From IMG/VR virus record IMGVR_UViG_3300023119_000093, positions 1 to 28,021 of that record: 28,021 nt of DNA, one strand, 5' to 3'. The notes below the pieces were generated by a model, which was not told the origin of the DNA, searched no databases, and worked only from the letters and a program-made list of their open reading frames with translations. The translations under genes were made by a program, and so were the position numbers. The DNA is from a virus. Shown piece by piece: positions 431 through 16,697 of the stretch (its first letter is position 1; each line of letters begins with the position of its first letter).

Positions 431-619
431 ATGACAGTTTATCTTGTAATGTGGAAATCAACAAAATCAAATGGTGTTTCAGCAGTTTTTAATTCACAGG
501 CGGCGGCTGATAGAGCATGTGAAATGTTTCGTGAAAGCCGTGAAGATTCTTCTACGGCATTTCATGTAGCGCCATTTCTTGTTCAATCAGAAGAGTTTTT
601 AGATGATACAAGTAACTAA
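431..619 (+). CDS. Small hypothetical protein (62 aa)
   Basis: The ATG at 431 has an excellent ribosome binding site, AAGGAG, four bases upstream, formed from the end of the previous gene. The product starts MTVYLVMWKS, and its centre (AAADRACEMFRESRE) looks helical. No known family is recognised. The 3' end overlaps the start of the iscA-like gene by 17 bases in another frame, which implies translational coupling. The tight spacing on both sides supports it as a real gene. Confidence 0.7.
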   Translation: MTVYLVMWKSTKSNGVSAVFNSQAAADRACEMFRESREDSSTAFHVAPFLVQSEEFLDDTSN

Positions 620-947
620 AGATGCTGCTGATGCTTTATTGGCATCCTACATGGCAGAAAATTTAGAACCAAAAGAAACAGTTCTTCGTGTTGGTGCGAA
701 CTCAGGAGGTTGTTCTGGTTGGTGTTGGGAACTCGAAACAAATTCAAAAGGTCAAATCGGAGAAGAAGATGTGACCTTTGAAACAAATGAAATTCTTGTT
801 GCCGTCAACAAAGAACTTTATGAAACTGTGATTGGTCCCGTGAAGATTGATTATAGTCAGAAGAATCTTGTTGAGCAGGGTTTTGTATTCATTCGTGAAA
901 GCGGTCAACAATGTGGTTGCGGAGAAAGTTTCACACCTTACCAGTGA
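603..947 (+). CDS. iscA: A-type Fe-S carrier protein, IscA/HesB/ErpA family
   Basis: A 114-residue protein, the usual length of the A-type iron-sulfur carrier family. The three ligand cysteines are in the expected places: Cys37 in the SGGCSG motif, and Cys104 and Cys106 in the C-terminal CGCGESF motif. Family members bind Fe or a [2Fe-2S]/[4Fe-4S] cluster as dimers and pass it to target apoproteins in the cytoplasm. No IscU, IscS or Suf partner is visible here, so the product would have to work with the host machinery. Similar proteins are known from marine T4-like phages, where they are regarded as auxiliary metabolic genes. The start at 603 lies inside the previous gene, with AAGAG upstream. 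Family certain; cellular role inferred. Confidence 0.93.
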   Translation: MIQVTKDAADALLASYMAENLEPKETVLRVGANSGGCSGWCWELETNSKGQIGEEDVTFETNEILVAVNKELYETVIGPVKIDYSQKNLVEQGFVFIRESGQQCGCGESFTPYQ

Positions 948-5404: not shown

Positions 5405-5425
5405 ATAAAATCTTGAAAGGAAATA

Positions 5426-6472
5426 ATGAAAAAATTCCTCTTCCTCTTCTCTCTTATCTTTTCTCTCTTTATTTCAATTGCTTACGCTGATAAACCAAAA
5501 GCCGCATTCGTCTATGTAGGGCCTGTAGGGGACGGTGGTTGGACCTACGCCCACGATCTAGGACGTCAAGAACTTGAAGCCGCTGGCTACGAAACAACTT
5601 ATGTTGAATCTGTTCCTGAGACTGATTCGCAGAGAGTTCTTCGTAATTTAGCAAGGCGTGGTTATGATGTAATCTTTACAACTAGCTTTGGGTTTATGGA
5701 TCCAACTCTTGAAGTTGCGAAACAATTTCCCGACACAATCTTTTTACATTGTTCTGGATTTAAAACAGCAGACAATATGGGCAACTATTTTGCAAGAATG
5801 TATCAAGCAAAATATCTTGCCGGTATGGTTGCTGGTATGACAACAAAAACAGATAACATTGGTATCATTGGTTCACACCCAATTCCTGAGATTGTTCGGC
5901 ATATCAATGCGTTCACTCTTGGTGCCCGATCAGTGAATCCTGATGCAGAAGTCAATGTTCTTTGGGTCAATTCTTGGTTTGATCCTTCAAAAGAAGGCGC
6001 TGCGGCAAACACATTGATGGACAATGGAGCAGATGTTGTTCATATCACAACCGATTCAGCCGCCGCAACACAAGCTGCAGATAAACGAGGAAAATTTGCG
6101 ATTGGTAACGATTCTGATATGACTCTTTATGGGCCCAAGGCTCACTTGACCGCACCTATTTTCAACTGGGGACGATACTATGTCGATGTAATGAAACGAA
6201 TTGAAGATGGTTCATGGACTTCTTCAAGCGAATGGTGGGGCATTGAGACTGGTATCATTGACTTATCAAAATTTGGACCAATGGTTCATACAAAAATAAA
6301 AGATATTGTAAATAAGAAGAAGCAAGATATTATGTCAGGACGATTTGTTGTATTCGAAGGACCTATTTACAATCGTGATGGTGACCTCGCTATTCAAGAT
6401 GGAATTGTTCCAACTGATTCAGAACTTCTTTCAATGAATTATTTCGTTGAGGGTGTAAACGGAAATCTATAA
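5426..6472 (+). CDS. BMP-family ABC transporter solute-binding protein
   Basis: 348 residues. Residues 1-21 are a signal peptide with a cleavage site after AYA. There is no lipobox, so this is a soluble periplasmic protein. The mature part has the features of BMP/Med (PnrA-like) binding proteins, which deliver nucleosides or related solutes to ABC importers: VGPVGDGGWTYAHDLGR (31-47), FTTSFGFMDPTLEVAKQFPD (84-103), INAFTLGARSVNPDAEV (160-176), WVNSWFDPSKE (180-190) and a C-terminal YFVEGVNGNL. Full-length and intact. It closely resembles what I recall of alphaproteobacterial members. No permease or ATPase gene is present, so it must use a host transporter. It has AAAGGA at 5416-5421 as ribosome binding site. 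Its codons seem slightly less AT-rich than its neighbours', which would fit acquisition from a host. Substrate unknown. Confidence 0.92.
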   Translation: MKKFLFLFSLIFSLFISIAYADKPKAAFVYVGPVGDGGWTYAHDLGRQELEAAGYETTYVESVPETDSQRVLRNLARRGYDVIFTTSFGFMDPTLEVAKQFPDTIFLHCSGFKTADNMGNYFARMYQAKYLAGMVAGMTTKTDNIGIIGSHPIPEIVRHINAFTLGARSVNPDAEVNVLWVNSWFDPSKEGAAANTLMDNGADVVHITTDSAAATQAADKRGKFAIGNDSDMTLYGPKAHLTAPIFNWGRYYVDVMKRIEDGSWTSSSEWWGIETGIIDLSKFGPMVHTKIKDIVNKKKQDIMSGRFVVFEGPIYNRDGDLAIQDGIVPTDSELLSMNYFVEGVNGNL

Positions 6473-7234: not shown

Positions 7235-7420
7235 ATGGAAATTGGAATGATGTTTGGTGTTGGGTTTGCGCTGGGAATTATTGTTGGCCTTCACATTTCA
7301 AGAATGTGTTGGCCTGAATATGATGAATCTGTATGGGATCGAAAAAGACGTGAAAAAGAAATAATTGATGATGCTCTTGAAAAGGAAAGAACGAGACTTC
7401 AGGAACCCCAATCAAGATAG
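7235..7420 (+). CDS. Small membrane-anchored protein (61 aa)
   Basis: Starts seven bases after the previous stop with AAGG upstream. The N-terminus is a glycine-rich transmembrane helix (GMMFGVGFALGIIVGLHI) followed by a charged helical tail (WDRKRREKEIIDDALEKERTRLQ). It is the last + strand gene, and its 3' end overlaps the 3' end of the - strand oxidoreductase gene by 22 bases. No function can be assigned. Confidence 0.65.
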   Translation: MEIGMMFGVGFALGIIVGLHISRMCWPEYDESVWDRKRREKEIIDDALEKERTRLQEPQSR

Positions 7421-8004
7421 TTGAATTCATTGATTTCATATTGAATATCTTTTCTCACTCGTCCTAACATTTTTTCTCTCTTCTTTTCACTACAGAATGG
7501 AACTGAAAAGAATTGTCGTATGGTAGGACGAAACCATCCAAAGCAAAAGCTGAACACACCTAACTGTAATCTCCACTTCACTGAATTCAAATAGATTGTA
7601 TGAACTGGCAATGCGGGAGCGCCGTGTGTCAAATAAGTATACACAATCTTATTCTTTAACAAAGGCATGGGTAAACCATATGTCTTTGTGATTTGCTTAA
7701 ACTTATAAGCAAAACCTGGCACAAAAATCTGATCAAAGAATCCTTCCAACATTGAAGTACAACGAAACCACCAAACAGGTGACACAAAGATCAAATGTGT
7801 TGCTTCTGTGATCTTCTCTTTATATTTTTGAATCAATTCACTATTTTTTTCTGCTTGAAATGCCGCATGAAATTCATCTTCATAAAGATCGATAATTTCA
7901 AATTCTTTACGAACAGATGAAAGTTCTTCAACTAAAGTCTTAACAATTCCTTGGTGATTAAAGCTATCTTTTTTATGATAGCCTATGATGATCAGAACTT
8001 TCAT
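7399..8004 (-). CDS. Flavodoxin-fold NAD(P)H oxidoreductase
   Basis: 201 residues, typical length for the flavodoxin-2 family (NAD(P)H:quinone oxidoreductase/YwrO/KefF type). The fold starts MKVLIIIGYHKKDSFNHQ (strand plus FMN-phosphate loop), and the hallmark FVSPVWWFRCTSMLEGFFDQ is at 73-92, followed by PGFAYKF and a later THGAPA loop near the isoalloxazine site. Members use FMN or FAD and NAD(P)H to reduce quinones or related electron acceptors. It is the last gene of the tail-fibre run, joined to the fibre gene upstream by an ATGA overlap (start 8004, upstream stop at 8001), so it is expected to be expressed with the late genes. Its role in the infection is unknown. Confidence 0.88.
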   Translation of the reverse strand: MKVLIIIGYHKKDSFNHQGIVKTLVEELSSVRKEFEIIDLYEDEFHAAFQAEKNSELIQKYKEKITEATHLIFVSPVWWFRCTSMLEGFFDQIFVPGFAYKFKQITKTYGLPMPLLKNKIVYTYLTHGAPALPVHTIYLNSVKWRLQLGVFSFCFGWFRPTIRQFFSVPFCSEKKREKMLGRVRKDIQYEINEFNYLDWGS

Positions 8005-13146: not shown

Positions 13147-14892
13147 TTAAAATGCTACAGGAGCTAAAGAAGGATATTCAGTTGAATGAGGCATCGCCAA
13201 TTGGTAATTATCACCACAACCACTAATTAAAAGCTGACCATCACTTGTAAGAACGTGAAGATTCATATATCGTTCATGTCCAACAAAAATAGCATCTACA
13301 ATAAATTTATCACAAATAGCTTCAGTCAATCTAGTTTTGTTACTTTGGTCACCGACTCCTAATTGACCGTAACCATTATATCCACAAGCATACACTCGTC
13401 CTTGGTCTGTAAGAACACCAAATACATTATGTCCATTTTGACCGTTACAGAAAATCTTGATTGGAAGTTCACCATTTTTAAACATACTCATATCTACTTC
13501 TGTCCACGAGGCTCGGGCAGAAGTATCACCAACACCAAGATTTCCAACTCCATTATATCCAGTAGAGTATAATTTATTATCAGTCTTATAAATGTAAGAT
13601 GCGGGATAATCATAGTAAGTATCATGGCAGAATAGCTCAACATCATCAGTAGAAGGAACTGGAATTCGTGAAGAAGAATTGACTGTAGAACTTCCGCTAT
13701 TCACACCAATACCATGAGAACCGTATCGATCTCCACCCCATACATGAAGAGACTTATCAGCAAGACGGCAGAATGAACTATGCGGTCCAGCCCAAATATC
13801 TGTGACCACTTGATTTGTGATTGATCCGCTGTTCAGATGAAATGGTGTGGCAGCATTTGTCGATGAGTTATTTCCTAATTGATAATCACCATTATAACCC
13901 CATACATGTAATCTTCCTGTACTATCAATTGAAAGTCCATGTGTGTATTCTGCTCGTCCTAAACGAACTTTTTCTACAGTCACACCTTCTGAAGTTTTTA
14001 GATTATCAAAATATGCAGACTTAACAAACCAGGAACTTTCTGATGTATCACCACGACCAAGCTGGCCATGAGCATTATAACCTGTCATATAAAGAAGACC
14101 GTTCACACCAATAACTGCCATACAGTTATTGTTTTGTGAACCACAAGGAACTTGAACATCTACTACTTTTGTTGCTCCTGGATTTCCATCATACAATGGA
14201 TTCGCACCGTCATTGCGTTTCATTACATTTTTTGGCATGTAGTTGTTACTATTTGTACCACAAACACCATTTTGATTTTCACCCCAAGTCCAAAGGTCTC
14301 CATTTTTGTCGATCAAAGCAAAACCATACTGATGTGATTTAACAAGCATTGGAGTATTATCAACAGCATGATACGCAATTCCTGGAAATCCAAGAGGGAA
14401 AGGCATACGATGTGTTTTTGGGCGGCTAGAATTATTTGTTCCTAGCCCAAGACCATAATGACCACCATGCCCCCAGCATCTTACTGAATCATCTTCCATC
14501 ATACAAAATTGTTCATATCCGTTCATTGGAACACCTTCAAATCGCAATAAACTTTTAACACGATTTGAGCTTGTTGTATATGGTGTAACCCATTCAGGCA
14601 TATTTGTATCAGCATTGATTGAAAGAACTTCTCCTTCATCACCAATTGGCAATCGACGTAGTTGATAGCCATCATGATAAATCAAATCTCCTGGTGTTGT
14701 TGCGACATCACGGGTTCCTTGAGCAAAGGTATCCCATTCAGTTACATCGAAAGCACCTGATGTTGATTGTGCCACCTTACAGATGAATGTATCAGCACCA
14801 TTGCTCACAACATCCTGTTCATGATATGTAAGATTGGTGTCGAACTCACCTTTCCAAGTGATGGCTACTTTTCCTAAAATTACGTTTGCCAT
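13147..14892 (-). CDS. RCC1-repeat beta-propeller tail protein (581 aa)
   Basis: Two parts. The N-terminus (1-60) has ITWKGEFDTNLTYHEQDVV and FICKVAQSTSGAFDVTEWD, the WKGxxxxxTxYxxxDVV motif of a small carbohydrate-binding-type module common at phage fibre N-termini. From about 125 there are eight RCC1-like repeats, with cores near 139 (CWGHGGHYGLG), 202 (TWGENQNGV), 268 (MTGYNAHGQLG), 330 (VWGYNGDYQLG), 384 (VWGGDRYGSHG), 442 (STGYNGVGNLG), 501 (ACGYNGYGQLG) and 556 (ISGCGDNYQLA). RCC1 repeats fold as a seven-bladed propeller in eukaryotes; an eighth repeat could cap or close it. Likely a virion adhesin. Paralogue of the next gene upstream. Confidence 0.88.
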   Translation of the reverse strand: MANVILGKVAITWKGEFDTNLTYHEQDVVSNGADTFICKVAQSTSGAFDVTEWDTFAQGTRDVATTPGDLIYHDGYQLRRLPIGDEGEVLSINADTNMPEWVTPYTTSSNRVKSLLRFEGVPMNGYEQFCMMEDDSVRCWGHGGHYGLGLGTNNSSRPKTHRMPFPLGFPGIAYHAVDNTPMLVKSHQYGFALIDKNGDLWTWGENQNGVCGTNSNNYMPKNVMKRNDGANPLYDGNPGATKVVDVQVPCGSQNNNCMAVIGVNGLLYMTGYNAHGQLGRGDTSESSWFVKSAYFDNLKTSEGVTVEKVRLGRAEYTHGLSIDSTGRLHVWGYNGDYQLGNNSSTNAATPFHLNSGSITNQVVTDIWAGPHSSFCRLADKSLHVWGGDRYGSHGIGVNSGSSTVNSSSRIPVPSTDDVELFCHDTYYDYPASYIYKTDNKLYSTGYNGVGNLGVGDTSARASWTEVDMSMFKNGELPIKIFCNGQNGHNVFGVLTDQGRVYACGYNGYGQLGVGDQSNKTRLTEAICDKFIVDAIFVGHERYMNLHVLTSDGQLLISGCGDNYQLAMPHSTEYPSLAPVAF

Positions 14893-14915: not shown

Positions 14916-16697
14916 TTAGAAAATTATTTTACTAGGTACGTGAATGTCCACATCATGAAGTTGACCATTCACACCTGCGTAACCTGCGCCTGAGGCGAAA
15001 ACATCACCTTTATCTGTAAGAACATGAAAAGACCAATAAGGTTGCCAGGTTCCTCCATAATTATGATATATGTATCCGGTATGAGTTGCTTCAACAATTT
15101 TATCGTTACCTACAGGATAATAAGCATTATCATATCCAACATAATCATCATTTGCAGGTTCGCCTACCCGTGTGGAACTAGCATGTCCTAATCCTCGCCA
15201 ACCTTCGTAATTACAACCTGTTGTCCACACACGACCATCTTTTGTCAAGGCATATCCCATTGAATTAAGATTTGACTTATACCAAGTGAATTCCTTAATA
15301 TTATCATTCCAATATGTGTTGTCGAGTTCATAGATAGGATTTGTATCCCAATCAACAGGTCCAGTTGGTGTGCAGTGGTTGCCCGGCCAAGGCGCTTGTC
15401 CCCAGCGATTTGGTCCACGATAAATCCAACGACCATCTTTTGTTCTTGCTATTGCCATTGGCCAAGCACCATTACCAAACCAAATATTACTAATATTTTG
15501 TCCTGTTTTATAAGACTCATTATGAATGGAATGTGACCAACTTGCTCCAGGTGAACCCCAACTTTCACCATCATGGGAGTCACTTCTGTGATAGAAATCA
15601 CCATTCTTAAATAGTATTCCTACCATAGCATAATAGTTATTATTGCTTGTATGGCGATAACAACCAACAGCGGAAAACTCATGAACTTTGTCAGGTAAGA
15701 ACAAAACTCTATTAAATTCAGTTGTAGAATAACCTAAGAAATTTGCCTTAGAATGTCCTACGGTCCATAAGTTATCATCTTCATCAATCATACCAGTTAC
15801 GTAATATCCATCTGAAGAAATTTTCTTGATTGGATGTTCGGCTGTGAATGGTATAAGTGCGGCTTGGTATCTTGTTCCACCACCTCGTCCTTGAATACCA
15901 TGAGGATTATCTTGCCCCCAGGAATATACTTTCCCAGATTCAGTTAAAGCGAAGTAAGTATCATAACCCCATTTTCCAATTTCAGCAAAGCAAAAAACAT
16001 CTTTAACTTTTTCATTACCAATTGGAGTTCTTTCATTCAGATTGACCATTTGTCTTTGATGGCCTTGATCTTCATTTTTTGTTGCGCCACCATAATGAAA
16101 TTGATGACCTGCTCCCCAAAGTTGACCATCACGGTCTATACAATGAATGGAAACATGTCTCGTCATTGTTTTTACAATTGGAGGTGTTCCTTTTGGGAAA
16201 TTAATTCGTGTTGGTGTATAATCACCAGTGGCGGTAGTATTATCTTTGGGACCCTGCCCTGTCAAATTATAAGAATTATTCCACCCCAAAGAACGAACAG
16301 AACCATCCCACATAACATAAGATATATAGTGGTGATTATGCCAGAAATTACCACAACCACCCATAAATCCATAATCAGATGATTTAGGTATAGATGAGAG
16401 TGCTTTGACTTTAGTTCCATTACGGTCATAGGGATGTTCAAAATTTACTTCACCGTTGCGAACATATAAAAATTCTCCGGGAAATCCAGAAACAACAGTA
16501 GAATCACCACCAACAATAATTTCACCTTTTGAAATTGCTTCGACTTGACCTCTGGCAAAAATCTTAAATGATTGTGTATCTCGTTCATAAGCAAAGGCCG
16601 CACCATCTTTATAGACAACATCTTTGTCTTCATAATCAATTGATTCAGAATAGGGACCTCGCCAACGATATCCTAATTTTTTGTAATCTATATGCAT
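14916..16697 (-). CDS. Divergent RCC1-like propeller tail protein (593 aa)
   Basis: Same plan as the gene at 13147 but more divergent. The N-terminal module is GYRWRGPYSESIDYEDKDVV (9-28). The body has eight degenerate RCC1-like cores, including VRSLGWNNSYNLTGQG, LWGAGHQFHYGG, VYSWGQDNPHGIQGRG, LWTVGHSKANFLGY, WIYRGPNRWGQAP, VWTTGCNYEGWRGLG and VFASGAGYAGVNGQ. It is notably rich in Trp, Tyr and His, which suits sugar binding. The same repeat count and N-terminal module in adjacent genes indicate tandem duplication followed by divergence. A role in receptor recognition is inferred. Confidence 0.82.
   Translation of the reverse strand: MHIDYKKLGYRWRGPYSESIDYEDKDVVYKDGAAFAYERDTQSFKIFARGQVEAISKGEIIVGGDSTVVSGFPGEFLYVRNGEVNFEHPYDRNGTKVKALSSIPKSSDYGFMGGCGNFWHNHHYISYVMWDGSVRSLGWNNSYNLTGQGPKDNTTATGDYTPTRINFPKGTPPIVKTMTRHVSIHCIDRDGQLWGAGHQFHYGGATKNEDQGHQRQMVNLNERTPIGNEKVKDVFCFAEIGKWGYDTYFALTESGKVYSWGQDNPHGIQGRGGGTRYQAALIPFTAEHPIKKISSDGYYVTGMIDEDDNLWTVGHSKANFLGYSTTEFNRVLFLPDKVHEFSAVGCYRHTSNNNYYAMVGILFKNGDFYHRSDSHDGESWGSPGASWSHSIHNESYKTGQNISNIWFGNGAWPMAIARTKDGRWIYRGPNRWGQAPWPGNHCTPTGPVDWDTNPIYELDNTYWNDNIKEFTWYKSNLNSMGYALTKDGRVWTTGCNYEGWRGLGHASSTRVGEPANDDYVGYDNAYYPVGNDKIVEATHTGYIYHNYGGTWQPYWSFHVLTDKGDVFASGAGYAGVNGQLHDVDIHVPSKIIF

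Follow-up and report, generated by a model that had tools for sequence, protein, structure and literature searches.

We consider it reasonably probable that a marine SAR324 phage, represented by an IMG/VR virus record analyzed over its 28,021 linear bases (the window), carries a host-derived binding protein that loads the host's own purine ABC importer during infection. Contigs related to the window are T4-like; its BMP gene is nested among SAR324 genes and points to a probable marine SAR324 phage with a host-derived auxiliary metabolic gene. Neither the BMP family and its fold nor the notion that phages carry binding proteins is new.

The gene occupies positions 5426 to 6472 on the plus strand, with an ATG at 5426 and a stop codon ending at 6472, and encodes an intact BMP/PnrA-family substrate-binding protein of 348 amino acids; a ribosome-binding-site-like sequence (AAAGGAAA, 5416 to 5423, plus strand) was read upstream. 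The Pfam Bmp profile (PF02608) covers residues 24 to 304, aligned over profile positions 2 to 292 of 301, with 206 bits (E = 6.8e-61) against a cut-off of 24.1, which places the protein in the family, while no PHROG matched the ORF. Reading by eye gives a putative Sec-type signal peptide in residues 1 to 21 (5426 to 5488, plus strand; MKKFLFLFSLIFSLFISIAYA/D), which ends in AYA/D and has no lipobox; its hydrophobic character is that of the export signal of BMP/PnrA-like proteins, and residues 1 to 20 have a pLDDT of only about 50 in our structure model. A sequence-only reading had described a full-length gene with a signal peptide, and both points stand. Among the phage copies of the gene, dN/dS is 0.09 to 0.16, with synonymous distances close to saturation in several pairs; the gene is kept by purifying selection, and on these values we reject a pseudogene.

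Most of the window consists of about 20 kb of minus-strand tail-type genes, with tail collar, tail fibre, and associated phage genes at 8001 to 28013 (PHROG and Pfam matches). Further genes encode a 2OG-Fe(II) oxygenase, a DUF3310 protein, an IscA-type Fe−S protein, and a flavodoxin-fold reductase. Neither tRNA genes nor purine-biosynthesis genes were identified in the 28-kb window, and the T4-type late promoter motif gave 69 matches versus 54 expected, none of which served as evidence.

The BMP gene was also found in five more viral contigs (G001 to G005) at 73 to 100% identity. G001 (33.2 kb) belongs to the virus of the window, its proteins being almost 100% identical in the shared stretch of about 23.6 kb; G002 and G003 hardly differ in their proteins and not at all in the BMP gene; G004 is related to the window; and G005, which has two tRNA genes, is a different phage. 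Together, the window and these contigs represent four distinct phage lineages. G002 and G003 carry a T4-like TerL, the G002 terminase being at most 46% identical to those of marine myophages, and T4-like terminase, portal-like, sheath-like, and baseplate genes on contigs related to the window show a phage context in place of the ordinary bacterial chromosome whose presence would have spoken against a phage gene. In G002, one ORF of about 6,700 residues spans 22780 to 42900 on the minus strand (across L011 and L012) in the tail-gene region, with a match in G003.

IMG/VR records are predictions, most of the contigs are fragments, and the window itself has tail genes with no capsid or terminase gene, all of which would fit a host gene recently captured as a functionless bystander, or a contig that is bacterial and wrongly classed as viral. 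We give this explanation very little credence, in view of purifying selection, four phage lineages, the T4-like TerL of G002 and G003, and an identity of at most 73% to any SAR324 gene, which argues against a recent capture. In addition, a contig of 88.9 kb (G060) links a Bmp gene of a second viral clade to Portal_T4, Gp23, a tail sheath stabiliser, a scaffold protein, a prohead protease, DNA polymerase B, and a terminase; given its position among these T4-type core genes, we reject bacterial contamination. Another contig (G070, 90.2 kb) combines Bmp with T4 baseplate proteins, gp32, a ribonucleotide reductase, and IMPDH.

The phage gene probably derives from SAR324 bacteria. Among the matches listed for GTDB representative contigs, three deltaproteobacterial/SAR324 metagenome-assembled genomes lead at 66 to 70% identity and the next reach at most 56%. 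The maximum identity is 73% among 52 genomes of the phylum of locus L023, which we take as SAR324 because the genome of L024, a SAR324 cluster bacterium, falls in that phylum; 385 Alphaproteobacteria reach at most 52%. In the tree of bacterial BMP proteins that the sequence-only reading had proposed, four phage BMP proteins form one clade (100/98) nested in a SAR324 clade (99/100). The phage of the window therefore probably infects SAR324, the BMP tree being the one source of this host assignment. The SbmA/BacA-like transporter of G005 was rejected as added host evidence (one match, at 41%, in the 52 genomes); genes of this type occur with BMP on two phage contigs (L006:632-1603 in G005, and G060). 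Judging by its nesting in SAR324, the tail genes of the window, and the T4-like core genes of related contigs, the phage BMP gene is of host origin within a real phage genome and is a probable auxiliary metabolic gene.

In SAR324 genomes, the BMP gene ends an ABC operon (ATPase-permease-permease) and lies nearly always directly after its permease genes (flanks of about 1.5 kb), whereas the phage gene stands alone. Relatives of the SAR324-type permease and ATPase were absent from the window and its five relatives, as well as from four additional viral contigs, even at an E value of 0.01, so that a binding protein is encoded without the permease or ATPase of a complete BMP-type importer, as the sequence-only reading had also observed for the window. 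The contrast extends to a wider sample, in which the SAR324-type permease was found at none of 80 viral loci versus 70 of 80 bacterial loci (Fisher p about 1e-34, a value overstated by the kinship of the contigs, by some short loci, and because other permease types would be missed). The long locus L024 has xanthine dehydrogenase genes adjoining the BMP operon, and in L023 genes for allantoinase, HIU hydrolase, allantoicase, ureidoglycolate lyase, and a deaminase adjoin it (names read from translations). The SAR324 BMP proteins with such operons (L022, L023, L024, and L110 to L118), at most 73% identical to the phage protein and equipped with the same pocket string, are its probable source.

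By sequence and fold, the phage protein belongs to the AtzT-type, purine-base-binding subgroup. The closest solved proteins are the Brucella BMP protein 3s99 and AtzT 6pi5 (327 and 318 bits, respectively), the next structure scoring 92 bits. A model built on 36 relatives (mean pLDDT 92.8) matches the same two best, with 44 to 46% identity and a TM score of about 0.9; next comes a guanosine binder (25% identity), and after it PnrA and BmpD (16 to 22%). AtzT from Pseudomonas sp. ADP was crystallized with guanine and binds guanine with an affinity of about 110 nM, adenine with 2.5 µM, and other nucleobases weakly, while adenine was modelled in 3s99 (PMC6834077).

Pocket positions were assigned by alignment to the AtzT contacts (PMC6834077; all codons on the plus strand). 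The aromatic partners of the base, Tyr45 and Trp194 in AtzT, correspond to W39 (5540 to 5542) and W184 (5975 to 5977); Ser97 and Phe98 correspond to S87 and F88 (5684 to 5689), Glu165 to E155 (5888 to 5890), and Asn220 to D210 (6053 to 6055), which is Asp in 3s99 as well. All main purine contacts are thus kept (aromatic, Ser, Phe, Glu, Trp, and Asn or Asp), and the loss of ligand-pocket residues that would have contradicted a working binding protein is not seen. Differences from AtzT are K129 for Thr139, H159 for Asn169, and T208 for Asn218. The nine-position string WSF[K/R]EHWTD is common to the phage protein and the tree-nearest SAR324 bacteria. AtzT and 3s99 share subgroup, fold, and main contact residues with the phage protein but are bacterial genes, whereas the latter is phage-borne and lacks importer genes. 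PnrA, TmpC, and BmpD share its Pfam family and fold but differ in their nucleoside ligands and low identity in the structure comparison.

The main AtzT pocket positions are kept and the model best matches 6pi5 and 3s99, which makes a purine base, rather than a nucleoside, the most likely ligand. The sequence-only reading had proposed that the protein feeds a host ABC importer with nucleosides or similar solutes; the importer-feeding part is supported, but the AtzT/3s99 subgroup points to nucleobases. Since K129, H159, and T208 replace Thr139, Asn169, and Asn218, the ligand preference may differ from that of AtzT, and the structure comparison includes other proteins with this fold whose ligands are nucleosides or riboflavin. 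The xanthine and allantoin catabolism genes beside the host loci likewise make xanthine or related oxidised purines possible. The same capture with a nucleoside, a pyrimidine, or a purine-like compound other than adenine or guanine as the ligand nevertheless seems unlikely to us, given that by far the nearest structures (44 to 46% versus at most 25% identity) hold guanine or adenine and that the pocket retains its aromatic sandwich together with the Glu and Asp/Asn contacts.

For the preferred adenine- or guanine-type ligand, the proposed sequence of events is as follows. The BMP protein would be made during infection and exported by Sec to the periplasm, where it would bind a purine base; the loaded protein would then dock on the permease and ATPase of the host itself, and the resulting rise in purine capture, an effect already suggested by the sequence-only reading, may supply phage nucleotide synthesis. 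Marine T4-like cyanophages carry a host-derived PstS phosphate-binding protein (PMC3429862, PMC2984593). By analogy, and most simply, the phage BMP protein may top up the binding protein of a host importer. Both are host-derived periplasmic binding proteins on marine T4-like phages, and the parallel, drawn earlier for a stand-alone binding protein, holds, although PstS belongs to another family, has phosphate as its substrate, and concerns cyanobacterial hosts.

As the phage contigs encode no importer parts, permease coupling would have to be assumed, and one could instead envisage a role outside transport: receptor masking or blocking against superinfection, signalling, or periplasmic purine hoarding. 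We regard such a role as improbable, since the ligand pocket is retained in all viral clades, the protein traces back to the one that partners the importer of the host itself, and purine genes adjoin BMP in G005. That contig has, on the same strand and within about 12 kb of BMP, purA, a purT-like ligase, purC, purM, and an IMPDH/GMP reductase gene, with a dihydroorotate-dehydrogenase-family gene in the same cluster. Among 47 viral contigs with BMP that were searched, IMPDH/GMPR domains scored above the cut-off on 9 and purA was present on 2, raw counts for which we claim no enrichment; the latter count rules out purA as a regular partner of BMP.

An IMG/VR scan with the family alignment found 517 stretches encoding BMP relatives, the best 80 of which were the viral loci examined here. 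T4-type TerL is present on 8 of 45 contigs, which are mostly fragments. When the viral proteins are placed in trees together with bacterial ones, clade A, to which the window belongs, groups with one set of SAR324 proteins, and clade B, formed by L142 and seven others, with a different SAR324 set.

Clade C, with most contigs, is nested in Alphaproteobacteria, the branches at its exact sister being weak, and a cluster of seven contigs around L170 groups with Azonexus/Azoarcus; L166 and L169 were omitted from the last tree as uncertain. The W/S/F/E/W/D pocket positions are kept in all viral clades. From the separate positions of clades A, B, and C and the L170 cluster, the trees imply that phages would have captured BMP independently at least four times. 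Alphaproteobacteria and Betaproteobacteria are suggestions only for the hosts of clade C and the L170 cluster, respectively. The evidence tips modestly toward the broader view that capture of nothing but the purine-binding protein of a host ABC importer has happened repeatedly and independently in phages of several bacterial groups, and we lean just as slightly toward these groups being two lineages of SAR324, along with probably Alphaproteobacteria and possibly Betaproteobacteria, with phages that are T4-like where testable.

Phage records contained no named isolate with a BMP relative, the only matches being 14 unannotated "Bacteriophage sp." entries (13 faecal) at 23 to 43% identity. A near-identity DNA search of phages gave no match, and BFVD offers a single clear PnrA-like model, a fragment with 32% identity. 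We found no report of a phage BMP protein or of a nucleoside- or solute-binding auxiliary gene in the open-access literature, which is weak evidence of absence. The cargo may thus be new, as had been surmised, but it is not rare: the viral metagenome search, also suggested earlier, yielded the five related contigs and hundreds of IMG/VR stretches from several captures. If our reading is true, phages add a binding protein to a host importer and so obtain extracellular purines besides those of degraded host DNA, and the PstS idea extends to organic, nitrogen-rich nutrients. Phage lineages would also be suggested for SAR324, little-known marine bacteria. If the broader view of repeated captures holds as well, taking over an existing importer by means of its binding protein would be a way in which phages generally secure nucleobases, not one peculiar to phosphate-limited cyanobacteria. 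The phage BMP protein offers one assayable protein for the importer-loading idea.

In G004, codon 43 of the BMP gene is interrupted by an insert of 2,856 bases (L016 6507 to 9362), which opens with GTGCGACATG, encodes a 668-amino-acid reverse transcriptase (RVT_1 and RVT_N), and has group II intron domain V at its 3′ end (RF00029, 56.7 bits). Taking the insert out joins CA and T and regains the reading frame TYAHDLGR; the insert is a group II intron, whose predicted splicing would restore the frame exactly. Introns of this group seem to be uncommon among T4-like phages.

Several other genes of these phages were noted. Two large RCC1-like repeat proteins are encoded among the tail fibre genes of the window (13147 to 14892 and 14916 to 16697, minus strand) and are possibly beta-propeller receptor-binding parts. 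Flavodoxin-fold reductase genes at 7399 to 8004 of the window and 28023 to 28628 of G001 (both minus strand) are 74% identical and belong to one phage. The IscA-type gene of the window (603 to 947) lies near a NifU/IscU-type Fe−S scaffold gene of G001 with an intein-like insert (L009:7156-8025, minus strand), the two forming a small Fe−S assembly set. The same virus also encodes a Bax-inhibitor-1 family membrane protein (L009:8035-8745, minus strand) and a peroxiredoxin (L009:10034-10612, minus strand).
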